Source of the DNA: Hymenoscyphus infarciens
Lineage: Eukaryota; Ascomycota; Leotiomycetes; Helotiales; Helotiaceae
Reading direction: 5' to 3'
DNA length: 64,000 nt
NCBI GenBank assembly: GCA_001414345.1
Contig: LLCB01000117.1
Span: forward strand, 1-64,000
The position numbers and the translations under genes were made by a program. Each line of letters begins with the position of its first letter. Position 1 is the stretch's first letter. The notes beneath the pieces were generated by a model. It worked only from the letters and a program-made list of their open reading frames with translations. It was not told where the DNA came from and ran no database searches. Shown here piece by piece: positions 1 to 63,924 of the stretch.

Positions 1-556
1 AACTTCCCCACGACAGACCTTCAAAAACTCACACTCCCAGCTCTATCACCAATACGCTTCAGACGCGCTCTACTAGATACCATCTTCCCCGCCGTCTTGT
101 GACTGCCCAGTCGCTATATGCCACTTCATCCTCGTACCTCACCGTATAATTCCCCCCCCCCCCCCCCCCCCCCCCTAAGAATAAATTCAACATGGCAAGT
201 AAAGAAGAAAAACCCCGAGTCCCGGAAAGAAAAAACACAATTCCAACCACTCTACCACCAAAAGCGACCGACAACAATAAAAAGAAAAAGAAAAAGAAAA
301 AGAAAAAGAATAAAAAGAAAAAGAATAAAAAGAAAAAGAATAAAAAGAATAATCCTCCTCCGCCGAAACCCCCTTTCCAAATCACGAAGCGAGAATCCTT
401 CTCCAGATTAGGAATTCGGTTTCGGACGCTTTTTTCGTGCTGCCTGCTTTTTCGAGAGATGGAAATGTAGGGTTTCTGGAAGCACATCTTACTTTACTTT
501 CAACACTTTTCCTGTGATGAGAGCTTCTAGACTCTGTTCCGTGGAGTTGGGTGTGT
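1..556. repeat. Low-complexity 3' flank: C homopolymer and A-rich microsatellite
   Basis: No gene is supported here. Positions 152-175 are an uninterrupted run of 24 C. Positions about 276-351 are an A-rich AAAAAG/AATAAAAAG microsatellite. The long open frames over these tracts (poly-Phe on minus, Lys/Arg on plus) are products of the repeats. The stretch lies just downstream of the Cys-repeat gene that ends at 557 and probably holds its 3' UTR. Confidence 0.8.
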
Positions 557-8925: not shown

Positions 8926-9405
8926 ATGTCGAGCAAAGGCGAACGAGCCAGTAAGAAGATGAGGCGATTGAGTACAGATTCGGAGGGGTCGGACGACCAA
9001 GGGGGGTACGATTGGGTGCAATCCAAGGGCAAAACGGTTCCAGCTCCAATTCCAACACCAACTCACGTAGCAAAGTCCAAGCAGACGTAAGTCAACTTTT
9101 TGATTTCAGTGTCGTTATTCTCTTCTTTTTGAGTCTTCTTTCGAGCTTGTTTGTGCTGGATTGTTTGGCGTGGAAATCCGGCGAAGCCAGTGTCCTGAAA
9201 ATCGAGATGTCGAGAGTAAAGCATGTTGGAGAATATGGATGAATGCATCCTCGTTACGGAAGAATTCAAGTACGAAGTCAGCACGTGTGTTGGTTGGACG
9301 ACGTTGACAAGCAAGGCGCCGCAAATGGTTTCGCCGCAGCGCGGAGAATACAAGTACCAGTATCATTCTTCGCCAAGCGCTGCTTCCTCCTCGTCATCTC
9401 ATTAA
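8926..9405 (+). CDS. Small unknown protein, two exons
   Basis: Not recognised. Exon 1 is 8926-9086, starting MSSKGERASKKMRRLSTD and ending at a good GTAAGT donor. The best continuation is 9222-9405, which gives 114 residues and ends in a Ser run; its second half (VTEEFKYEVSTCVGW, then QRGEYKYQYHSS) has coding-like composition. An alternative acceptor at 9190 would give a shorter protein ending at 9242. The N-terminus is basic and hydrophilic with no signal peptide. It ends about 300 bp before the Ies2 start, so it could also be an upstream transcript of that gene. The existence of exon 1 is more certain than the second exon. Confidence 0.45.
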
Positions 9406-9707
9406 TTGCGAGCAAGGGAAAGGTGGTGAACTGGCCTTGTCTCGTTTGCTGTCGTCTTAACCTCGCAGCCGCGTCAACGAGCGCGCATCACGAGTTTATT
9501 ATTTTTTTTGTTATCATCCCAGCATCCCAGGAGGGAAGGCTGGGCTGTGCAACTACCCGTGGACTGGCGTCATCTTTGAATCGCAACTCATACTTCCTTC
9601 TTTGTCCACTTGTCAACGTCGCAATTCTTTTTCTTCTCCTTCTTCTTCTTCTTCCCCCCAACACCGATTTCTTGCAAACCGACCCAGCACTCATAACAAC
9701 TTTCGTC

Positions 9708-11025
9708 ATGTCAGCTCGTCGTAGTCAGCGTTCCGCAGCCGTCAAGGCCAAAGAAGCAATTACTGATAATGCCCTGTACGATAGAGCGTCATCGCGATCG
9801 GGTCGCAAGGCATCTGAAAATATCTCTAGTGCGACCGTTTCACGTGGAAGTCTAACAGTCAAACTTTCATCTAGTAAATTGCGAGAAGCCACTCGATCAA
9901 GTCCATTGGCCCAATCAGTCAGCATTGCAAAGAAGGAGGGACTTTCTGGTGCCGAGATCATCCATGACAAGAGAACCAGAAATGTTCGAAAGAGCTATGT
10001 CCTGGAATCCGATAGCGAAGAAGATGAGGATGAAGAGATGGAGGATCTTGGAGACGAGGACGCTGAAGGCGAAGACGATGAGATCGAGGATGAGGACATG
10101 GATGCTGAGGATGATGGGTTGGGCGACGAAGACGCCGAGGGTGATATCGATATGGATGCCCCACCTCCACCACCAGTCATCAAAATATCCAGAGCGCAAA
10201 ACGGAAAACAAACCATTACCGCCAAGCCAGGTCCAAAACTCGACAACAAGACTGTTGAGCAAAAAGAAATCGCAGCCGGTAGCGACGACGATGAGGAATT
10301 GAGCGAATTGGATAGTGAGATTGGAGAAGAGGTTGATGAGGAAGAAGCTATGCAAACAGGCAATGAAGAAGACGCGGAGGGAGAAGACGAAGAGGTTGAA
10401 GCCGAGGAAGACGAAGAGCCCGATAGCGATGACGAAACACCAGGCGATGGTAGTCGTGCTTCAACTCCTGATCTCACCAAATTGACCAAGAGACAACGAG
10501 CAAGAATTGAGGAGAGCGGAAGTGGCCATTTATTGTCCTTACCCGATGGTGAGCCTTACCAACACATTTCAAGTTTCCCTCAACTGACCAATTTTTCAGA
10601 AGTTCAAGTCAAGAAGCATTTGACAGCTGAAGAGCACGCCATGCGAAGAGCAGAGATGGCGCGTCGACGAAAGAATCTCAGCGAGAAACGCAATGAAGAA
10701 GAGAAGGTATGTTTGCACTCCATCCTGCAATTGATTTTATATTAATCCTATTTAGATGGAAACCATCAACAAACTTCTTAAGAAGCAAGCCCCCAAAACA
10801 AACGCCCGTCGTCGAGATTTCAACGGAAATGGTGATGCGACACCCAATGGCGAGCCCCAGAAAGCAAATCCGCTATTTGTTAGATGGGTCAGCAATAAAG
10901 ATGGCAATCGAATCGGTGTTCCTGAGGAGTGGTTGGAGGCTCCAAGCGGAGGATTGTTTGGTGGCGCTGCTAAAGTTGATGGTGGTTTGGGCATGGGAGG
11001 GAAGCTTATCCAGGAGGTTTCCTAG
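9708..11025 (+). CDS. IES2: INO80 chromatin-remodelling complex subunit, Ies2/PAPA-1 family
   Basis: Subunit of the INO80 nucleosome-remodelling complex in the nucleus; in yeast Ies2 stimulates the ATPase. Two exons, 9708-10706 and 10756-11025, with a 49-bp intron (GTATGT donor, TTTAG acceptor), 422 residues. The N-terminus is basic and Ser-rich. Residues about 100-250 form long acidic Asp/Glu tracts. From about residue 255 comes the PAPA-1 region: LTKRQRARIEE, a SLPDGE loop, then the strongly basic EEHAMRRAEMARRRKNLSEK helix, which the intron interrupts before KLLKKQAPKTNARRR. A hydrophobic tail (FVRWVSNKDGNRIGVPEEW) follows. The frame stays open upstream to 9243, but the ATG at 9708 begins the family-like N-terminus, so the upstream part is taken as 5' UTR. 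Confidence 0.9.
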
Positions 11026-17491: not shown

Positions 17492-20400
17492 TTATGTTAC
17501 TATTTCGAGATTGAAGTCATCGAAATAGATTGATCCTCCGGTTGGTGCTGTGCCGCAATTTAACTCGGCTCTGAGAAGGGCTCCACCTAGGGCCACGTAG
17601 TCGGTTCCTCTGCTGAAAACGAATGTGCCAACGGTCTGTTGCCAACCTACTGCGTTGAGGGTGGCAGGAGTGGTAGTTGCCACCAAATCCGCGTAGTGTA
17701 CGTCATCGTTTAGATCTGTGCCACCAAGATAATAGACTACTGTACAGTCGGGGCTGGTGACACCCTCATTCTTCGTCCACTAATTGCTTTTAGCAGAGCT
17801 CGGGTCAACAAGTTGTTATTTACTCACGACAGAAAGTGTGTAATCAGTATCTGAACAGACTTGGACACCAGGTTGCTCGAATCTTGCGGCTGTGGCTCCT
17901 GTGCCCACGAAAGTGGTTTGGGCGGATTGTTGCCCAGTATGTGGAAGACTGACAGCTCCGCCTAATGCAAAGTTGTAGGTAACACCAGTAGAAGAACCCG
18001 CAACCACGTTCCAAACTGTATTGGGATCGTCCTCGAAACCCAGATCGAGACCAGGGTTTTGACATGATTGGACTGGCTACCAAAAGTTAGTGGGGATATC
18101 CATAATAGCAGAATATAGTATACTTACAGTGTCTCCGCCGCCACCACCGTCTCCTCCACCTGTGGGTTCCCCGGGAGGTCCCTAGTTGCAAGATTCCTGT
18201 GTCAGTTGGCTTCTTCAGGAAAGGATTCAGGACTCCTTTTAAATGTCTCAGGGGTACAGAAAGACGTTTTCGAATAGGGGAAAGAATGCTTACTTGGGGT
18301 CCCTATATTGCAAAAGTATTCAGTTAGCTCACTCATCCGCAAATAGCTGGTTGATGGGTCTCTGGAAAGGGGTAATTCTCCCAAAAGACTTGAAACGAAC
18401 GTAATGTTTTATGAGTCCTAGAAGGATCGGGATGGCTGAAGCTTTATCGACTTACGGTCAATCCAATTGGTCCTGTTGATTGCGTAAGTTGTCTGAAACA
18501 ATGGTTTGATCTTCAAGAGAAGGATAAAAAACACATTCACATACCTTCCGGGCCTTTAGAATGAGTGTGTTAGCTATGCCATCATTAATAAAAGTGCTGA
18601 AGTTTAGGATAACAAACCCTCGGGACCTGGCCAAATGTTAGCTGTGATCATGATAATCATAGGAGAGAGGTGGGGGTCGGGTCACGTGCCGATTGGTCCT
18701 TGCTCTCCTGCTATTGGTTAGTATAAAGCACTCTCAAAGAGGTAAATTATTGCGGGAGCTTGCCTTGCAATCCTTGAGGCCTGCAAGTGTCATCAGTTTG
18801 AATCACAAGCATTGGGACGAGGCTTTGGTTACATACCCTTGTGGTCTGCAAACACCATCAGCTCCAAATATAAGCATAGAATATCGTTATTTGACTCACC
18901 CGATGTCGCCTTGGGGCCTGCACAGAGAATATTAGCACTTGTTACCTATAAGAGACCCGTGAAGTCATTTCTGTACACCTTCTCCTACTAGGTATTGTGC
19001 AAAGCAGTTTCGGAATACTTGAAACTATTATTGAAGCATCTAGGGAAATTAGAGACAAAGAGAAGAGCTCTCAATTTCCCCAAACGTTCCAAATAAAGTT
19101 GCAAAGCATTCTAAGCGTTTAAAGCAAGAGCAAAACACTAGTGGGTGTTGCTTTTCGTGGCGGTTCGTGGAGTCATTATACTAGATTGTCTCGGAGAATC
19201 ACTGATTGTTCTAAACCACTGAGTTGGCCCTGAACAATCAGTATTTAGACCTTCTCTTTTTCCTAGTTTCTTCGTATAATGGGACACTAATCTCCGCCAC
19301 AGATACGTCCAGCCTGTGGAGGAAGATAAAGTTGACAGAATAGACTCGGGGCCTTTGTTATGAGGAGCGTGAGGGCTGTCGTTGGTACATACCCTTCGGG
19401 ACCTATCAAAATGTCAGCCTATGGTGTAGACACAAGAACAGCATAGATATCACCAACCTGTATCTCCATCGTTGCCTAAATTGATTGATTAGTCGTGGTT
19501 CCTTCCTCCAACATCGGGTTTGAGCTCCTTCGGGCCTACCTTGTGGGCCTGTATGAGGATTTAACTATAATGCACCAGTATAGAGAGTAGGGGAACCTGC
19601 CTTGAGCTCCATCGGCACCTAATCATGAGGTTAACAACACAATAACTTGAGCAGAGGAGAGTTTGTCCATGCCTGTCTGTCCAGGGTCCCCGCTAGAACA
19701 TACACACACCAACGTCAGCATGGATTATTCTTAATTAAGGAAAAACGATTGGTGAGCGATTTTGGGAATTCAGCGTCTCAATATCATATCTGGATAGTAC
19801 TCAAAAGTCCACCAGTGGGTGTTCGAGAGCACTGGAAGACGATAAATAACCACCGAGAATGAAGGGCTGAAAAGGGGGATTGGGGTTAAGATGAAAAGTC
19901 GCATACGTGGCACCTAAACAAGTTAGCTTCAATCGTTTGGAAATAAAGAGCGGGCTCAAACCTTGCAAACCCTGTGGGCCTAAAGAGGAAGAAATTAGTA
20001 CGGCGTGAAGATTATAAACAGAGCGAGCTCCCACCTGGATCGCCAGTCTAAGAGAAGAGAAGTCAGTAACAGTTCCTAAAGAAAACCAGGCTGCGCTGTT
20101 CTTGTTTGAGAAAAGACTCAGCCGCAATTGCCACAATTTGTAATGAATATGAATGCAATGACTCGGGCGCATATGTGAAAAGTTATCTCTCAAATCTCCT
20201 CAAAGCTCTTGTATAATAGGTGTCACTGTCTTGGAATTTTTGGCGTAAGACGTAGAGCAACGACTGAAACTGTTTTGGTCGCAGACCAGAGGACGACAGC
20301 AGATGCCAAATGATCCCACATTTGAAGCAGCCAGCGAACTGTGTACCAGCTCGTTTCCACAGTGATCCTTGGGTCTGGAAACGGGAAGAAAGTGGGTAAA

Positions 20401-20737
20401 TATCGACCCTTACATCCACGTGAGTATCACGTGTAGGTAAAAGTAACCTCTGCAACATAGCACCGCCGACTCCAAAGATATCATCGGATGACGGTCGCAT
20501 CACGTGTCTGTGAGAAACGAGTCTCTCCAGCTCTGAGACAGCACCACTGCACTGAAGTTGCGATTGGAACGGCTCATGAGAAGATCATGCGAGCAGTTCA
20601 GCAACAATACTAAACGTGCCCCGTGAGATTTGTTGATCGCGTCATGCCTCTTACGATGTCCCGCTCACCCGTGGAGTGAAAGCAGTGACCAAACTAAGAA
20701 CGAAGCGGATGGTGGAAGGAATATATTCGTGACTCAC
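17492..20737 (-). other. Exon map of the collagen-like gene, exons 47-65
   Basis: Continuing on minus: 20035-20047, 19962-19979, 19907-19913, 19673-19692 (GC donor), 19601-19618 (GC donor), 19540-19548, 19458-19475, 19393-19402, 18900-18917, 18837-18845, 18764-18780 (GC donor), 18690-18698 (GC donor), 18618-18626, 18545-18553, 18456-18472, 18294-18302, 18128-18181 (54 nt, last triplets plus Gly-rich linker), 17828-18076, 17492-17779 (stop TAA). The last two exons encode the globular C-terminal domain, with GTGAGT donor and CAATTAG acceptor between them. Confidence 0.82.
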
Positions 20738-23700
20738 AGGTCCACTATCTCACGTTAGCACAATGTTCCACTCTAAATGAAAGACGTAACGATCCCAAAT
20801 AGAACCTCGAGAATTCGGCACTTGAGATTTGAGGGAAAAGACGCATCGGAGGAAGAGATTGGGATACTAACGTCGCTCCAGTACTTCCAGTACTTCCTAA
20901 TATGTGTGTAAGTAGGCTAGTTTCAACATCCAAAAGAATGCTCCAAGGTTGGAGGTGCCTTGGAACAAATCAAATGGAGGACACGGGGATTGCTTGCCAG
21001 TTTGGCCCTGTTAAATCAGTCAGTAAGCGTTGGGAGGAAGAGTCTAGAAAATAGAGAAAGACGGTAACGTTCTCTCAACTATTTTTTCAACACGAGGGAC
21101 GTGGGGGAGGGAAAAGGATTTACACACCTGGGCACCGGTCGCGCGTGCAAAGAAAGTCAGCAATTGCAAGAGCTAAAAGTAGAACAAGCAACTCATCTGC
21201 TGGGCCGGACGGTCCGGTATCTCCTATTAAAGTGTCATGTCAGTCCACATTTTTAGGTATTCGAAACTGTCGAGCATTCTTTCCCGTATATCATTTTCGC
21301 CATGATTTCAAAAATTTGGGGCAATCGAATATCATAGGAAAAGTCTAGCACCATGAGAGATAATTTCTTGAGTGCCCTATGCCAAACTCGGAGAATTCCA
21401 GTTGCTGGAAATTCTCCCGGACCGCTCGGAGTTTGTAAATCGCTGCGAGCCTCAGCTCGTGGTGGACAATCAAAGCAGCAGTAAATGTTTCATGTTCCAG
21501 GCTCGGACTTTCCTATCCAGCCCATTTTGTTCTAACTTTCTGGGATAATTCTTTGCTATTATCCGACAAAGTTGAAACAATTTGATATATATCAACCCAG
21601 ATAGTTTCGAACAATGATTTTGATTGTCCGACATCCTCTGAGTTAATAAAAAGGATAAGAAGGGCGGAACAACAAGAGATCTTTATTGCAGCAAGTGTAA
21701 TCCACCACGGACTATCCAATTTAATGGAATATGGTGCGAAGTGGTTGTCCACCGCGCGTAGCAGTACGAATAATGCACCCGAGCCCCGGAATCGGGTGTT
21801 GGCTTGTTTTCGTCTTTGAATAACCTTCAGAAGAATGACTAGGAGAGAGCACATACCAATATTTCCCTAATAACAAAGGCATTAGTAAACATCCTTAGAG
21901 AGTTGAGAGAAAACAGGAATCCATCCAGGGGTCTTACCTTTACTCCAGCCGGTCCTAAGGCGTGTCAGTTGCGAAATTAGTCATATATCAGCTCTTTCGT
22001 TCAAACCCTGCAACGAGTTAGTTTGATTTTTCCTCGTGAGAGGATTGGGAGGGGAGAGCATTAGCACCCCGCTCGGCTGTCGAGATCACAGAATCGAGGA
22101 AAACTCATACTTGCGCTCCCGTGGCCCCTAATCGCCAGTAAGTAGCTGTATATACGTTGGAAGAGTTGAATATAATCTACCTGTCAATCCTAGTGGTCTG
22201 TTGCATGTATGTAAGTATACTCCCCTCCCCAGTAAATAGAAATTGGGTTTTCTTCTTACCCAGTCAAACCAGTAGCACTATGGAACGGTGGCGTCAGTGA
22301 TCCTCTTGAAAGACTGTGGATGAAGTCACGTACCCCGTCGTACTGTCATAAAACGTGTATGTTAGCGCTTGTCGTGAATATTTGCAGAGACAGCTACATA
22401 CCCAGTCAAGCCTTCATAGAATAATTAGCTAGGTTAGTAGATCACTAAGGATTGGATTCACTTTCCCTGGGGCCCTAATCGAGTTTAGCTTAGCACATAT
22501 GAACAGTTTGATTGCGAGGAAGTCTACCTGTTGCACTATTTCGTAATGTCAGCCTCTTTACGTGAGTATAGAAGGAGTCCACTCACCCCTGTGCACCTAA
22601 TCACACTCAAGTTAGACCTGTTATCGTCGGTAGTAAACGAGGGATCAATCACCTTGGGAGCCTGTACAAAATCAGCTCAGCAATTTCAACAAAACTACCA
22701 CAGAACGACAAACCCTGGTAAAAGTTAGCTTCGTTTCTTATAATTGAACAGATAACAACGTAAAGAAGTATCAGAGTGTCAGAACTCAGAACGGGCGCGT
22801 AAGCTGGCCATGTATGGTACAGTCTCATCATTGCGCGAAGCAAACTCGGAGAATTAAGGAATTGCTCCTTTAATTATCCTAAATTGTTCTTACAATTGTA
22901 GACTTGACACAAGGCACATGGAATGAGTGGTAAATTGAAATTCAGCTCAGGCAGCCAGAAAGTTTTGAGACCCCTCTGATGGAGGGAGCGTCGGGAGGAG
23001 CGCATCGCATCTCCCCGAAGACGTGGCAGAGGAAAAGGGGATTACTCACTGGCGTGCCAGTGTCGCCTTTAACCTTAATTGAGAAGCTTGAAGTTAGTAA
23101 CAGTCTTGAAAAAGACAATTCCAAGAAATTGGTGCATAACACCACAACTCGGAAATAGTCCTATTATCGTTGGATATTTTGCTTACACCACTACCTATAA
23201 TCAGCAAAGCGTTCTTCATGGAGGGGTAGGAGCTTGAAGAATAGTCGATTTTCAAGCAGCCCAAAAATGAAGCCGGTGAATGGGAATCTTAATTCTTACG
23301 TGTCGCCTGAAGATTGTTAGCGTTTACCGGTGAGGTGGGAAAGAGAAGAGCCTGCCTTTTACGCCTTGAAATCCCTAAAACGCAGAGGTTAAGTTAGCTT
23401 CAATGCTTCAATACTAGATGGCGGAAACAAGAAGAGGGGTGTTCTCAGATGGGGAATGCTCCAAAGAATCAACCCCAGTGTAGTAAGTAGTAGATTGTCG
23501 ACAACATAAAAGCAAAAGTCGGACTTCTGCCGTGTGAAGGAATAGCAGAACTCTCAAGTTTGATTCCGTGTATAGAAGGAAAGTCGTGGAGAAGGTGCAA
23601 TTCGTTTGGCGAGGGGGAGCATGTGCGGCCAAGTTGCCAAGACACTTGTAAATGGTGTCAACCTTCATACTACTGACCACACCGAGGTTTTGCATGATCT

Positions 23701-26700
23701 TATTTATGTAGCATTTTCGTGGCGGCTACGTTCATTGGAGTCGAAATGCCGCTTCTATAGATTTGCTTGGACGAGCGATGGCCGGGAAAGTCTCCACCCG
23801 CTCATGCTACCTCCGGAAAAGAATAAAGTAAGAACATGGGACTTCAACTTACCTGTGCTCCTGTAGAGGTATTAATTGTAGCTCATTATCACAGCCGCAT
23901 GATTCCTCACCTTGCTGTCCTGTTAATCCTTGGGGACCTCCAAGAAGTCAGTATTTATGGTTTCCAAATGGATTTACAAAGGCGACCAGAAGTCTTGCAG
24001 CATCAAGTGTGACCGCCAATCGGAGAACCTCCCGTAGCAACAAGTTTTAGTGTCTTTGGTACTAATGCAATGATGACTTCGGAAATGGAAGTCTTCAGCT
24101 GAGTTTCTTCACGATGGTGAGCAGAACACCGCCGCACCATAGCCCCTGGGCGGCAATTGCCATTTTTATCCGATGGCTGCAAGACTTCTGGACACGGCTA
24201 CTTGGGGTTTTCAGCTCACCGGTTGCCCCATTGCTTCCCTAAAACACGCATTCAGTATCGTTCTTATAGAATTGAGATGAGGCGGGGCTTTCTAGCTTAC
24301 CTGAGGTCTGAAAAATTCTTTTAGCACGGTAAATTGAGCAGCAGATATCAATATCGAGACTTACCCAGCAGGTCCACTGGCTGTGCGAGATTTCTGAGTC
24401 AGTTGACATTCGGTCCGAGTAGGAATAGAATTGTTCGAGGGGGACACGAAATCTGAACTCTCCTGGAACAACCTGGAAATCGAACTCACATCCCGTGGTT
24501 CCTATTGATATGTCAGTGTTTCATTCTTATTGATCAGACAGTCAAACAAGTGAAACTGATAATAAGCCGCCGCGGAGGCTTCAATGTCTGCTCATGATAG
24601 GACAAGTTACTTTCCCAACAAGAGAGCTAGTAAGTTATCCGATCCAAAACTCAATGTCAAGCTCCGTCTCTGGGCTTGCGGCGTGCTTGTGACGACTCAA
24701 GCAAGAGTGCCCAAACTAAACACCGCACAGCTTTGGAGACACGATACCATCGAATGGATGTCCTGATTGACATCACCTCACGTATAATGATCTTAAACAA
24801 TGTGGTTTGATCTTCAGTGACAAAGTTCGTCTGTAGCGTATTGGTGTATGCCGTCTATCACGCCCTCCTCAATCACGTCTTGGAGAGTTGGATCATGTGG
24901 AAGGTACCAGGTAATCAAGTGATGTACACCCTGATTATCTCGATTCTTTTCATGCCTTCAATTTGATTGTCCTAAACATCCTTGAATAGATTGAGGGGCA
25001 GGTCTTGGCTTGGCGGATTCCACCAGAACTCGGCCCGACGGCTTGTAACAACCTGTTTCTGTCCGTAATTTCACCAAGATACTTTGCAACAAAAATTGTT
25101 CCAAAATGCCTGGGATAATGTGTGAAATTGTTTCAAAAGTTTGGGGTAATTACTTGAATTACCCTGAATAGTTGGAACAAACAGCTCGGACAGGCAGGTA
25201 CAAACCGCGAGTGTTTACTGTCGCTTTCTTGCAGAGAGAATTCCGCAACAATTCTTGAACTATCTCAAAACCATACGAAGATGAATACTGCTGGCATTTA
25301 TGCATCTCTGCAATGGTCCAAGTACTAGTATCTGTTCTCCAGAATGGTTGTGGACGTGTCGGCGCCACCAAAGCTTTCTTGATAATTGGTTGAAACAGAC
25401 AAAAAGATGGTATGCGCACCTGTATCGCCCTTCGGGCCACTTCAAAGCAGGTCAGTCATGCTTTCTTTTCTCTCCTTCGGGGCGAAGTTTTCGTTGACAC
25501 CCAAAACGGGAATGTTAGGAGTGCGCGTATAGAGGACGTACGTTATTCCCTACAACCAACATGTTAGTCTATGTTCAACGTGCGAGATAGTGATGCAAAG
25601 GAGGTGAGGGCCAGCAAAATCCTGCTGAGATCACGCAAAGATTAAAAAATGCTGTCTACCTGAGGGCCGGTTTGACTATCATCACTTTGTCAGCGTCTTC
25701 ATGTAAGTAAGGATAGAAGAATTCTCCGCACCCAGTGGATCCTAAGATCAGTCAGAAGGGGTTGTTCTTGCAGTAAAGCAGATCTAGCGGAGATAGGTTG
25801 TGACGAGTAGTCCTTTACGCCATCCCCGACGCGAGGTTTTTTTTACCTGTGCTTCCTACGCCCTAAATTAGATTTTCATGGGTATAAAAAGGCGCAGAAT
25901 CCAGTACCTGTAGCTCCCTGTTGTCTGCAGATGGTATATTAGCCTAGCTGTACAAGCAAGAAACGTCGAAAACGTCGAAAGCTCACCCTGCTGGACTTGA
26001 GAACCGTCAGCTTGACATGCAGACACATAGATAACGTGGATTTTACCCCTAGAAGAATATGAAGTTAGTTTTGCCATATCCAGAATTGTGCCTGATTGGT
26101 AAACGGGAGTGTTTTGGAAAATAGAGTTGTGTGAGAAGGAAATATTCTCCAATCCCCCGAACAACCATTAATAGGGAAAAGAACTTGCAGTATCTCCCGG
26201 AGGGCCTATCAAAGTCTCGTTAGTCAACACTGCCACCATGCCATCACAGAGATGCTACCTTGAACTCCTATCTAGATGGTTAGCCTATTCTACCTCTATA
26301 AACAGTCATGGGTACATGCCCTGAGATCCGTTCACTCCCCTATCCATAGAGTTAGCTTCAGTATGTTCATAGAGCCAACCAGGAGTATTTATTTTACGCT
26401 GGGCCCTGATCGCCGGTGTCCTGAGAAGGTGTAAGCCAAGATAACTAGATATTGACTGGGCTTTTTCCTTACGCCTTTCCCGCCTTGACTTCCGGCGTCA
26501 CCTCCAAATGGTCAGCCACAACCCCCAGACAGCTGGAGATCCCGCCAAACCTTTGTCCCCTTTGCTGTAAAGGTATCTGAGTCAGCAATGCCGTTTGTAA
26601 AAAGTTCAGTGTTTGTCAAAAGAGAAGCAGACGATGGGAAAACACGTACTCCCCCTTGGATCCAGTCGCCTGTCAGGAACACACCATCAGTATTGCATGA

Positions 26701-27437
26701 AAACCTCGCTGGATCGAGTTTACCCACCCCAGGAACTGTCAGCACTTGTCAGCAACCTTCCTCGCCACACTTCGCTCGCACATTGTCATTCTGGTTAGAA
26801 GATAGAAGCGGGAAGGAGGGCTTACATCCGTCAGCGCCCGTTCTTCCAGGTGGCCCAATAGTTCCGCCCAATTGATAAATGTTCAGTCTTTGTGTTCCAC
26901 CACAAACTTGGGCTGTGTTACCCCTGCATGGGGTGGTACAATCCCCAGCAGGCATAACCATACTCCCGGAACGAATAGAGTTACCACAGTAGCACTAAAT
27001 ACATCATGTGAGCATAGGTAACTTAGAAGCCACGTGCGAAAGACTTCAGGACGATCATAGGTAATAAACATGCGAAAATTGATTTCGGAATTCCACTTCC
27101 CTTCTCAGGGGCAATTATGCAGAAGATTTGTGTAATAGTAAGAGGGTTCACAAAAGTGTAAGAAGAGATCTCATACATCGCCTCCATTCTCGACACCCAT
27201 AACGGTGTATCCTTGACATTGCGTGGCGCAAATTTCGAGAGTAAGCGAGTTGCTGCTGAAAAGCTTTCCTTGGAGTGCTTTGGTGGAAGCACTATCAGAA
27301 TAGCATCCTTCTGTCGTGAACGAGTAAACTGCGTTTCCCGCTGGATTAGGAACCGGGGATCCGTTGGCCAACGTCGATAAGCCAAGCAGGCGGTAGGCCG
27401 CCGTCCAAAAGAGTGTGGGGGGTTGCATGATTCGCAT
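17492..27437 (-). CDS. WSC-collagen-like secreted protein encoded by about 65 exons, mostly microexons
   Basis: Predicted secreted trimeric stalk protein of 608 residues. Signal peptide about 1-26. WSC domain about 41-128, with eight Cys including GDCYCG. Gly-X-Y tract 131-418 (96 triplets). Gly/Asp-rich linker 419-430. C-terminal domain 431-608 with four Cys and beta-rich sequence (NPGLDLGFEDDPNTVW, YTLSVVWTKNEG, IYFDDFNLEIVT), like a galactose-binding-type carbohydrate module. No GPI signal or membrane segment. WSC modules bind glycans in known fungal proteins. Exons 1 (27437-27177), 2 (26994-26826), 63 (18181-18128), 64 (18076-17828) and 65 (17779-17492) are ordinary; the 60 between are 1-29 nt, each flanked by donor, acceptor and CTRAC-type branch site. 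Exons sum to 1827 nt, divisible by three. A second in-frame ATG at 27428 is an alternative start. Extra frame-neutral microexons in the longer introns cannot be excluded. Confidence 0.9.
20738..23049 (-). other. Exon map of the collagen-like gene, exons 29-46
   Basis: Continuing on minus: 22714 (1 nt), 22653-22661, 22587-22596, 22528-22535, 22466-22474 (apparent GA donor), 22402-22411, 22334-22342, 22260-22277, 22181-22197, 22111-22127, 22007 (1 nt), 21938-21954, 21857-21866, 21197-21223 (AT donor), 21128-21144 (AC acceptor), 20998-21007 (GC donor), 20872-20896, 20738-20744. Phases change freely between exons, yet every junction completes a Gly-X-Y triplet. Confidence 0.78.
23050..27437 (-). 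other. Exon map of the collagen-like gene, exons 1-28
   Basis: Listed 5' to 3' on minus (low-high coordinates): 27177-27437, 26826-26994, 26728-26735, 26650-26669, 26551-26564, 26473-26501, 26398-26420, 26320-26339 (GC donor), 26259-26267, 26189-26205 (GC donor), 26047-26048 (2 nt), 25987-25995, 25908-25924, 25847-25855, 25732-25741, 25660-25675, 25542-25549, 25420-25439, 24490-24501, 24365-24380, 24301-24307, 24220-24238, 23911-23937, 23853-23860, 23356-23374 (GC donor), 23300-23306, 23187-23190 (4 nt), 23050-23073. Intron 24502-25419 (918 bp) is the longest of the gene. Confidence 0.8.
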
Positions 27438-62254: not shown

Positions 62255-63924
62255 ATGTTCAATTTGTTACTTGCTACCGGAATTTTCCCCATTATTCTCG
62301 CCTTGCCGGCACCACAAATCGGCGATTATGGAGAGAATACAGGGGCTGTAGCAGGCATCAAACCACCCACCCCAACCGTCACTTCAGCTTCTGGTTCCCT
62401 TTATGGACCCTCGTCTCTTCTTGGAGAAGTCGCTGCTCCTTCACCAATCAACGGTGGAGACTCAGCAATAGTACCGGACGTCAAACTTGTGAATGGCCAA
62501 GAAGCAGATGCAAATCTGGGGTTATATCTCGACTTTGAGAGCATCGAAAAACCACAGCCCATTCGAGGAGATGTTGGTCAAACCGATCCTGGACCAAGTG
62601 ATTCAAAAAACCCCCACATTTAATAGTTTGAGACTTATCTGGTTTTCTAGGAACATTCGACTATGAACGACTGAACCCGGATTCATTTGCTCCTCCGGGG
62701 ACTGATGCTGGCGACGTCCCCCAGGCAATGTGGCCACTAGGTCTTAGCAGCAATCGACTTGGAACTGGAAAACAATCTGGCTGGGCTCGTCAACAAAATA
62801 TTAACCAACTGCCGGCTGCAAAAGAAATGGCTGGAGTAGACATGCGTCTCGCTCCTCACGCTTACCGCGAACTCCACTGGCACACGGCCAATGAATGGGC
62901 TCTAATGCTCAAAGGTTCTGTCCGACTTAGTGCTGTCAACGAAGACGGTGAAACCTTCAACGACGACATCAGTGCTGGTGATGTATGGTTCTTCCCTGCT
63001 GGAATTCCACATTCAATTCAAGCTCTGGATCAAGGATGCGAATTTTTGCTTGTGTTTGATGATGGAACCTTTAGCGAGGATGGCACTTTCCTTGTCTCCG
63101 AAATGTTTTTGAGAAATCCGAAAGAGGTCTTGAGTAAAACTTTACAGACACCCGTTTCGGCATTTGATAACCTACCCAAAGACCAACTTTACATTTTCCC
63201 TGGAACCCCGGCACCGGCCAACTCTAGCGAGCAAAATGTCACTTCTCCATATGGGGAGCTTCCGATCAACGAATCTTTCACTTATCACTGGTCACAACAA
63301 GCTCCCTACACGGTACCCGGTGGCTCAGTCAAGATCCTAGATACAACAACATTTCCCATTGCAACTGATCTGGCAGCAGCACTTGTCACAGTTCAGCCTG
63401 GTGCAATGAGAGAATTGCACTGGCATTTGACAAGTGATGAATGGAATTACTTCTTGCAGGGAAGTGCACGGATCACTGTCTACGATGCTCCCCAGAGCTC
63501 AAGAACATTCGACTTTACAGCAGGTGATGTAAGTCCCAAAGTCTCCCCTCGCGTGATAAGGGAAATGATGGCTGAGAAATGATGATCAGGTCGGTTACAT
63601 TCCAGCATCCAACTCTCATTACATCGAAAATACTGGTGATACCGATGTCATTTTCCTCGAAGTTTTAAAGCAAGGGAAATTTACGGATATCAGTGTGGCT
63701 CAGTGGCTAGCATTAACACCGAAACAAGTCGTCCAAGATACGGTATTTTAACCCCCTCCTATTACAAAAATGATGAAGAATGCTAACAATATTCGAAGCT
63801 TGGCCTTCCCGATGAAACACTCGATAACTTGCCGAAGAAGAAAACATTCATCAAGCCTGGAAATAAAAACCTTACTGCTTTGGCGGGAGAGCCAAATGGA
63901 AGTGCTGCTTATGTCGGTAAGTAA
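62255..63924 (+). CDS. Oxalate decarboxylase, secreted bicupin
   Basis: Manganese enzyme that converts oxalate to formate and CO2; in fungi it is usually secreted or wall-bound. Four exons: 62255-62597, 62651-63528, 63590-63742 and 63799-63924, about 499 residues. The first junction restores the family sequence DPGPR-T and RLNPDSFAPPGTD. Residues 1-19 are a signal peptide (MFNLLLATGIFPIILALPA). Cupin 1 has the metal site HWHTANEW (near residue 189) and a lid-type loop FDDGTFSEDGTF; cupin 2 has HWHLTSDEW (near 368). Both sites keep the His-x-His-x4/5-Glu pattern. The lid motif reads SED where bacterial enzymes have SEN. The last exon ends in GTAAGTAA, which is both a stop (TAA at 63922) and a splice donor (63917), so a further exon at or past the window edge is possible. 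Confidence 0.9.

Follow-up and report, generated by a model that had tools for sequence, protein, structure and literature searches.

In animal fibrillar collagen genes, exons start with a whole Gly codon, have lengths that are multiples of 9 and are often 54 nt long. The micro-exon genes (MEGs) of schistosomes contain 10–20 very short exons (6–81 bp), mostly multiples of three, separated by introns of 0.1–5 kb (PMC10526429). An exon of 1 nt has been reported in Arabidopsis (PMC4674806), and CYP621A of Fusarium possesses a transcript-supported 1-nt exon in an AGGGT context (PMC12940212). Here we describe a collagen-like gene of Hymenoscyphus infarciens on the minus strand of contig LLCB01000117.1 (assembly GCA_001414345.1), at 27437..17492 of the 64,000-nt stretch that was analyzed, which is called the window. 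With a probability of roughly 0.85, it is a functional gene for a secreted protein with WSC, collagen and carbohydrate-binding module (CBM)-like parts, read from 59 consecutive microexons that are spliced by intron definition, in an array to whose growth cassette duplication contributed at least in part. Among the papers listed by literature searches, which left most subscription literature outside their coverage, none describes a fungal collagen gene built in this way, as judged by title and abstract opening.

The gene was parsed with a dynamic programme in which exons are joined across GT/GC...AG introns no shorter than 40 nt and every third codon has to begin with GG. Donor, branch and acceptor weights were set by hand after the general fungal consensus. 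Exons 1, 2, 63 and 64 and the end of exon 62 were also placed by hand, and the remainder came from the programme. This parse, made independently of the first-pass annotation, yielded 64 exons with 1800 nt of coding sequence and 599 residues. The joined frame begins with ATG at 27437, its stop codon ends at 17492, and there are no internal stops in 599 codons. The features of the model are as follows.

27177..27437, minus strand: exon 1, 261 nt; carries the start codon, a hydrophobic leader at the N-terminus and the beginning of the WSC domain
26826..26994, minus strand: exon 2, 169 nt; remainder of the WSC domain and first Gly-X-Y triplets
18294..26735, minus strand: microexon array, exons 3–61; 59 exons of 1–29 nt with introns of 48–918 nt
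First bases of exons 3–17, minus strand: 26735, 26669, 26564, 26501, 26420, 26339, 26267, 26205, 26048, 25995, 25924, 25855, 25741, 25675, 25549
First bases of exons 18–32, minus strand: 25439, 24501, 24380, 24307, 24238, 23937, 23860, 23374, 23306, 23190, 23073, 22714, 22661, 22596, 22535
First bases of exons 33–47, minus strand: 22411, 22342, 22277, 22197, 22127, 22007, 21954, 21866, 21223, 21127, 21007, 20896, 20744, 20047, 19979
First bases of exons 48–61, minus strand: 19913, 19692, 19618, 19548, 19475, 19402, 18917, 18845, 18780, 18707, 18626, 18553, 18472, 18302
26047..26048, minus strand: exon 11, 2 nt (GG); score drop of 9.2 if forbidden
24502..25419, minus strand: intron 18, the longest, 918 nt; carries a short dispersed repeat
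22714..22714, minus strand: exon 29, 1 nt (G), ccag|G|gtttgt; forbidding its acceptor costs 10.4 nats
22007..22007, minus strand: exon 38, 1 nt (G), gcag|G|gtttga; forbidding its acceptor costs 9.9 nats
21124..21223, minus strand: exons 41–42, where the model is least convincing (donor gtccgg, 4-nt exon 42)
18128..18181, minus strand: exon 62, 54 nt; final two Gly-X-Y triplets, then a Gly-rich linker
17828..18076, minus strand: exon 63, 249 nt; opening half of the C-terminal domain
17492..17779, minus strand: exon 64, 288 nt; completes the C-terminal domain with its other half and ends with the stop codon

The microexons have a median length of 12 nt and contribute 779 nt of coding sequence. 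29/59 are 10 nt or shorter; among these are two 1-nt exons and a single 2-nt exon. The longest uninterrupted Gly-X-Y run in the joined protein is 93 triplets, and the collagen tract measures 801 nt by hand count from the exon list. Across the more than 8 kb between the WSC and C-terminal exons, the sole open reading frame (ORF) of at least 120 aa is one of 130 aa spanning introns 45–48. The first-pass annotation had described a fungal collagen-like gene with about 60 consecutive microexons and one uninterrupted Gly-X-Y run across them, and both descriptions stand for what is probably a helotialean gene. Its counts of 65 exons, 96 triplets, 1827 coding nt and an 828-nt tract were not reproduced. 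The extra exon and 27 nt could not be recovered, as no single exon of 9–63 nt (length a multiple of 9, acceptor score at least 2, donor score at least 0) fits into the introns of 95 nt or more. The equality of 828 and 92 x 9 had been offered as a check that would expose a single mis-assigned base. Because divisibility by 9 is built into the joining, that check is partly circular and is weaker evidence than claimed.

A free choice of tiny exons could assemble any periodic protein. The parse was set against several controls. The gene scores 399.8, compared with a mean of 34.5 and a maximum of 62.7 for 200 dinucleotide shuffles and 21.0 for the plus strand. Over other stretches of the genome and the window, 57 strand runs gave a mean of 30.1. 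Three of them fall on the gene's span: the best, at 99.9, is a minus-strand block overlapping the gene and represents its own 3' part, and the two plus-strand runs score below the ten best listed. The 54 runs outside the gene reach at most 51.6 (one sequence, run twice). The microexon pattern is far beyond chance at the place and on the strand where it had first been noticed, and the repeated minus-strand CTRAC branch motif reported with it was confirmed, with 46 occurrences on the minus strand, 4 on the plus strand and 23.0 +/- 4.1 in 200 shuffles.

Choice of parameters matters at the lenient end. Open costs of -7, -8 and -10 gave an identical set of 61 segments and costs of -4 to -6 gave 63–65, while a cost of -3 gave 79, the additional ones being weak or spurious sites inside long introns. 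This behavior would be expected of a chance parse, as would the scores of 62–177 (GA best) obtained on the same sequence when other dinucleotides were demanded in place of GG. These scores arise because the splice units are partly reusable, and GG is far ahead of them.

The strongest test against chance is a bare parse without splice consensus, which knows only GT (GC penalized), AG and a minimum intron of 45 nt. At an open cost of -8 it returned 55 exons, 44 of them identical to the model, and features that it does not score were strongly enriched at its sites. CTRAY lies within 50 nt upstream of 76% of its acceptors (n=54) versus 26% of other AGs (n=529), a pyrimidine precedes the AG in 83% versus 40%, and 72% of its GT donors (n=50) carry G at +5 versus 17%. 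At an open cost of -6 it returned 75 exons, of which 50 coincide exactly with model exons, and enrichment dropped to 65% and 61%. A paralogue described below has the same plan. These results make chance a very improbable explanation. It is excluded for the complete array, although individual exons could be wrong.

The 63 introns fall into groups of 48–64 nt (35 introns), 71–90 nt (5), 101–127 nt (12) and 140–918 nt (11). As branch-like motif the parse selected CTRAY in 51/63 introns, with a median distance of 12 nt to the exon. The two 1-nt exons each have the context ag|G|gt, and the exons that precede them end in CCA and CAA. Forbidding single sites lowered the score by a median of 9.0 for acceptors and 9.2 for donors. 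The 12 introns of 101–127 nt are about twice the usual length, and it is possible that they hold lost exons. In the 14 introns of 95–160 nt that were examined for stwintrons or lost exons, no convincing internal sites were found: three have no internal donor/acceptor pair, and the best of the others scores 7.1 versus a mean of 9.6 for model exons.

Introns of the tract favor the Gly codon. Leaving out the intron after exon 62, 47 of 60 lie at or within a Gly codon by hand count, where 20 would be expected of an even distribution. The commonest position is after the first base of the codon (26/60), and 10/60, also counted by hand, are at the start of a triplet. Such a bias is what recent copies of one mobile family inserted at AG|G of Gly codons would produce. 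We consider introners of this kind improbable, however, as a 540-nt stretch that spans eight exons with their introns has no genome match other than itself and repeats within the gene are few, short and faint. In one of the repeat pairs, the sequences around the two 1-nt exons match each other (75% over 28 nt). The genome searches for copies of introns covered this stretch and introns 18 and 45. Intron 18 contains a repeat (query positions 192–326, core about 25095–25205) with at least 19 further genome matches at 71–84% identity, and intron 45 had no other match in the genome. A transposon origin of the long introns, considered for these two, was not adopted.

Several observations weigh against the favored explanation. 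The exon chain is known from genomic sequence alone, and from one genome. The splice-site scores behind it were set by hand rather than trained on this genome, and other dinucleotides reach 177 on the same sequence. Support over the next best path is below 5 nats at 15/60 acceptors and 11/60 donors, partly because exons of 9 or 18 nt can be dropped whole. GC occurs at 8/63 donors (exons 8, 10, 25, 43, 49, 50, 56 and 57), a share far higher than the roughly 1% usual in fungi; 8/8 read GCANG, as good GC donors should, and the scoring favors GCANG. Exons 41–42 are weak, as the exon 41 donor reads gtccgg and the 4-nt exon 42 yields Gly-Pro-Cys. Finally, no relatives of the WSC part or the C-terminal part were found in the protein database in searches that needed shared words and admitted only proteins of about 330–1050 residues. 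The same database gave many fungal matches to the neighboring gene, and a gene finder would probably truncate genes of this type.

We wondered whether the locus might be an intact chain that has recently lost its function, or one whose transcripts are mostly mis-spliced, with splicing too error-prone to yield protein. The genomic basis of the model, the weak sites at exons 41–42 and the position of the gene beside an AT-rich island would all suit such a history. Conversely, 93 triplets run across the array with no stop or frame break, and splice signals are kept at nearly all introns. Recent loss is accordingly given little credence.

A different use of the array is that microexons are skipped in varied combinations to give collagen chains of differing length, in the manner of schistosome MEGs, which are alternatively spliced (PMC10526429). 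19/59 microexons have lengths that are multiples of 3, and 17 of these 19 are also multiples of 9 and keep the repeat register, so each of the 17 could be skipped singly without loss of Gly-X-Y register. However, 40/59 are not multiples of 3 and most single skips would break the frame, whereas schistosome microexons are mostly multiples of three (PMC10526429). A family of length variants therefore seems unlikely, though less so than loss of function.

We favor a functional gene in which the exons are presumably all joined in the cell by intron definition. Each intron would be recognized as a unit, mostly within 48–64 nt, with U1 binding at GTRNG or GCANG and SF1/U2 at CTRAY, whose median distance from the exon is 12 nt. 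Intron definition is favored where introns are short and have a full set of signals. If introns are recognized as units, exon length hardly matters, and the efficiency of intron definition is set by intron length and not by exon length (PMC8624252). Prp40 is cited in the same source as required for the inclusion of such small exons. It is unlikely that exons of this size hold enhancers. Neighboring introns across exons of 1–10 nt probably cannot be bound together and would then have to be removed in order. At the 1-nt exons, removal of the upstream intron first would create the near-ideal donors CAG|gtttgt and AAG|gtttga. These junctions are read off the exon chain, and from them we infer the order of removal.

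The joined protein consists of a WSC domain, the 93 Gly-X-Y triplets and a C-terminal domain. The signal peptide in the exon 1 leader was inferred by eye. Pfam WSC (PF01822) matches residues 44–120 at 66.8 bits (cut-off 27.8). Pfam Collagen (PF01391) scores 134.9 bits (cut-off 27.2) on the parse-joined protein, which was built to have the repeat. CBM_4_9 (PF02018) scores 25.8 bits on the paralogue, just under the cut-off of 25.9, and the C-terminal domain of this gene had no match to it at E 0.1. As predicted from sequence, the protein would be secreted and would join its WSC domain to a collagen-like rod of about 280 residues and a CBM-like C-terminal domain; it is located perhaps in the cell wall or matrix. 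Both secretion and the triple helix are deduced from these parts.

The C-terminal domain was used to search the organism's own genome (65.6 Mb in 742 contigs). Beside the gene itself one relative was found, on contig C559 (E 8.7e-18), where the match adjoins WSC matches. Within the stretch C559:93500-100500, the parse yielded a paralogue with a score of 276.7, for which 21/29 path segments were kept (97873..95165), 8 outer ones were dropped as spurious and the outer exons were set by hand. Its 26 exons encode a protein of WSC-collagen-C-terminal plan that is 539 residues long and has 76 Gly-X-Y triplets. Exon length is 8–46 nt in nineteen cases, 54 and 59 nt in two others and 225 nt in one. 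Identity to the gene is 55% over residues 7–145 and 38% over residues 424–598, and introns match at the splits between the two WSC halves and between the two C-terminal halves.

A 157-nt unit occurs three times in the paralogue's array, at spacings of 157 and 166 nt, and the other two copies are 93% and 83% identical to the first. Since 157 nt corresponds to two microexons plus two introns, the paralogue gains microexons when entire exon-intron cassettes are duplicated. Its repeat also grows without introns, as the 225-nt exon is an 18-bp tandem repeat. The array of the gene on the window would have grown at least partly by the same tandem duplication of cassettes, which is fresh in the paralogue; the faint repeats in this gene are compatible with an older array. 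It is conceivable, and offered only tentatively, that the two genes represent a helotialean class of collagen genes that grow by cassette duplication into microexon arrays read in strict order, in which the introns guard the repeat from slippage and recombination. On this view, introns that break up the repeat would explain why the gene has almost no internal DNA repeats when the paralogue has its 18-bp-repeat exon.

Further members were sought by parsing stretches with a WSC or Collagen match. No further collagen microexon gene was found among 17 WSC-bearing stretches of about 10 kb and 4/5 Pfam Collagen places, the fifth being the paralogue. Matches to the Collagen profile on C481 (86000-94000), C144 and C270 (26500-34500) were rejected as microexon genes as they parse as the simple repeats QNG, GRR and SNG/SKG, and C236 was rejected on background parse scores. 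A strict splice-unit pattern had 0 matches in the whole genome, this gene included. A looser one had 169, versus 253 in the reversed control, showing no genome-wide excess, and the sole cluster among the matches listed was seven in this gene.

Around the gene, an AT-rich island occupies 28001–56000 of the window, with 17–29% GC in 2-kb steps versus 37–50% elsewhere in the window; its first step starts 564 bases upstream of the gene's start codon, and it looks like a mutated repeat island. An INO80 subunit 2-like gene with a PAPA-1 region lies at 9243–10745 on the plus strand. Its best named relatives, each over 68% of the query, are in two Helotiales, Hymenoscyphus fraxineus (76%) and Glarea lozoyensis (69%), and the protein-database relative P0001 is 98% identical over 69% of the query. 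A Cupin-domain protein is encoded at 62728–63582 on the plus strand (111 bits for Cupin_1). An Rfam scan of the window gave no match.

If transcripts confirm the model, one fungal pre-mRNA has to be spliced 63 times, mostly at exons below the size that exon definition can handle, and would be an extreme natural test of how tiny exons are found and joined. Genes of this kind would probably escape standard gene finders and aligners, and the class could therefore be widespread yet overlooked. One way in which such arrays grow is visible in the paralogue.

Compared with animal fibrillar collagen genes, to which the first-pass annotation had likened it, the gene shares a Gly-X-Y repeat cut by many introns. 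Beyond that the likeness is weak: the exons are far smaller, only 17/59 microexons are multiples of 9, and the introns mostly cut inside the Gly codon. The 54-nt exon 62, which had been taken as an animal-type unit, holds just two Gly-X-Y triplets before the Gly-rich linker, and its size match is coincidental.

The microexon in Xlr2 of Trichoderma virens (PMC11121469) is also from a filamentous fungus, but it is single and regulated. The AGGGT context of the 1-nt exon in Fusarium CYP621A (PMC12940212) is common to both 1-nt exons here. For Fusarium and Arabidopsis one 1-nt exon per gene is reported, whereas here two occur within an array of 59 microexons. Schistosome MEGs share consecutive very short exons for a secreted protein and the difficulty they pose to automatic annotation (PMC10526429). 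They differ in exon number, size and phase, as this gene has 59 exons of 1–29 nt of which only 19 are multiples of three, and in their introns, which here are mostly 48–64 nt (35/63). The likeness is drawn from architecture, and no sequence kinship is suggested. MEGs, single fungal microexons and 1-nt exons are thus known; this gene is a micro-exon gene by architecture, and not a member of the schistosome family.

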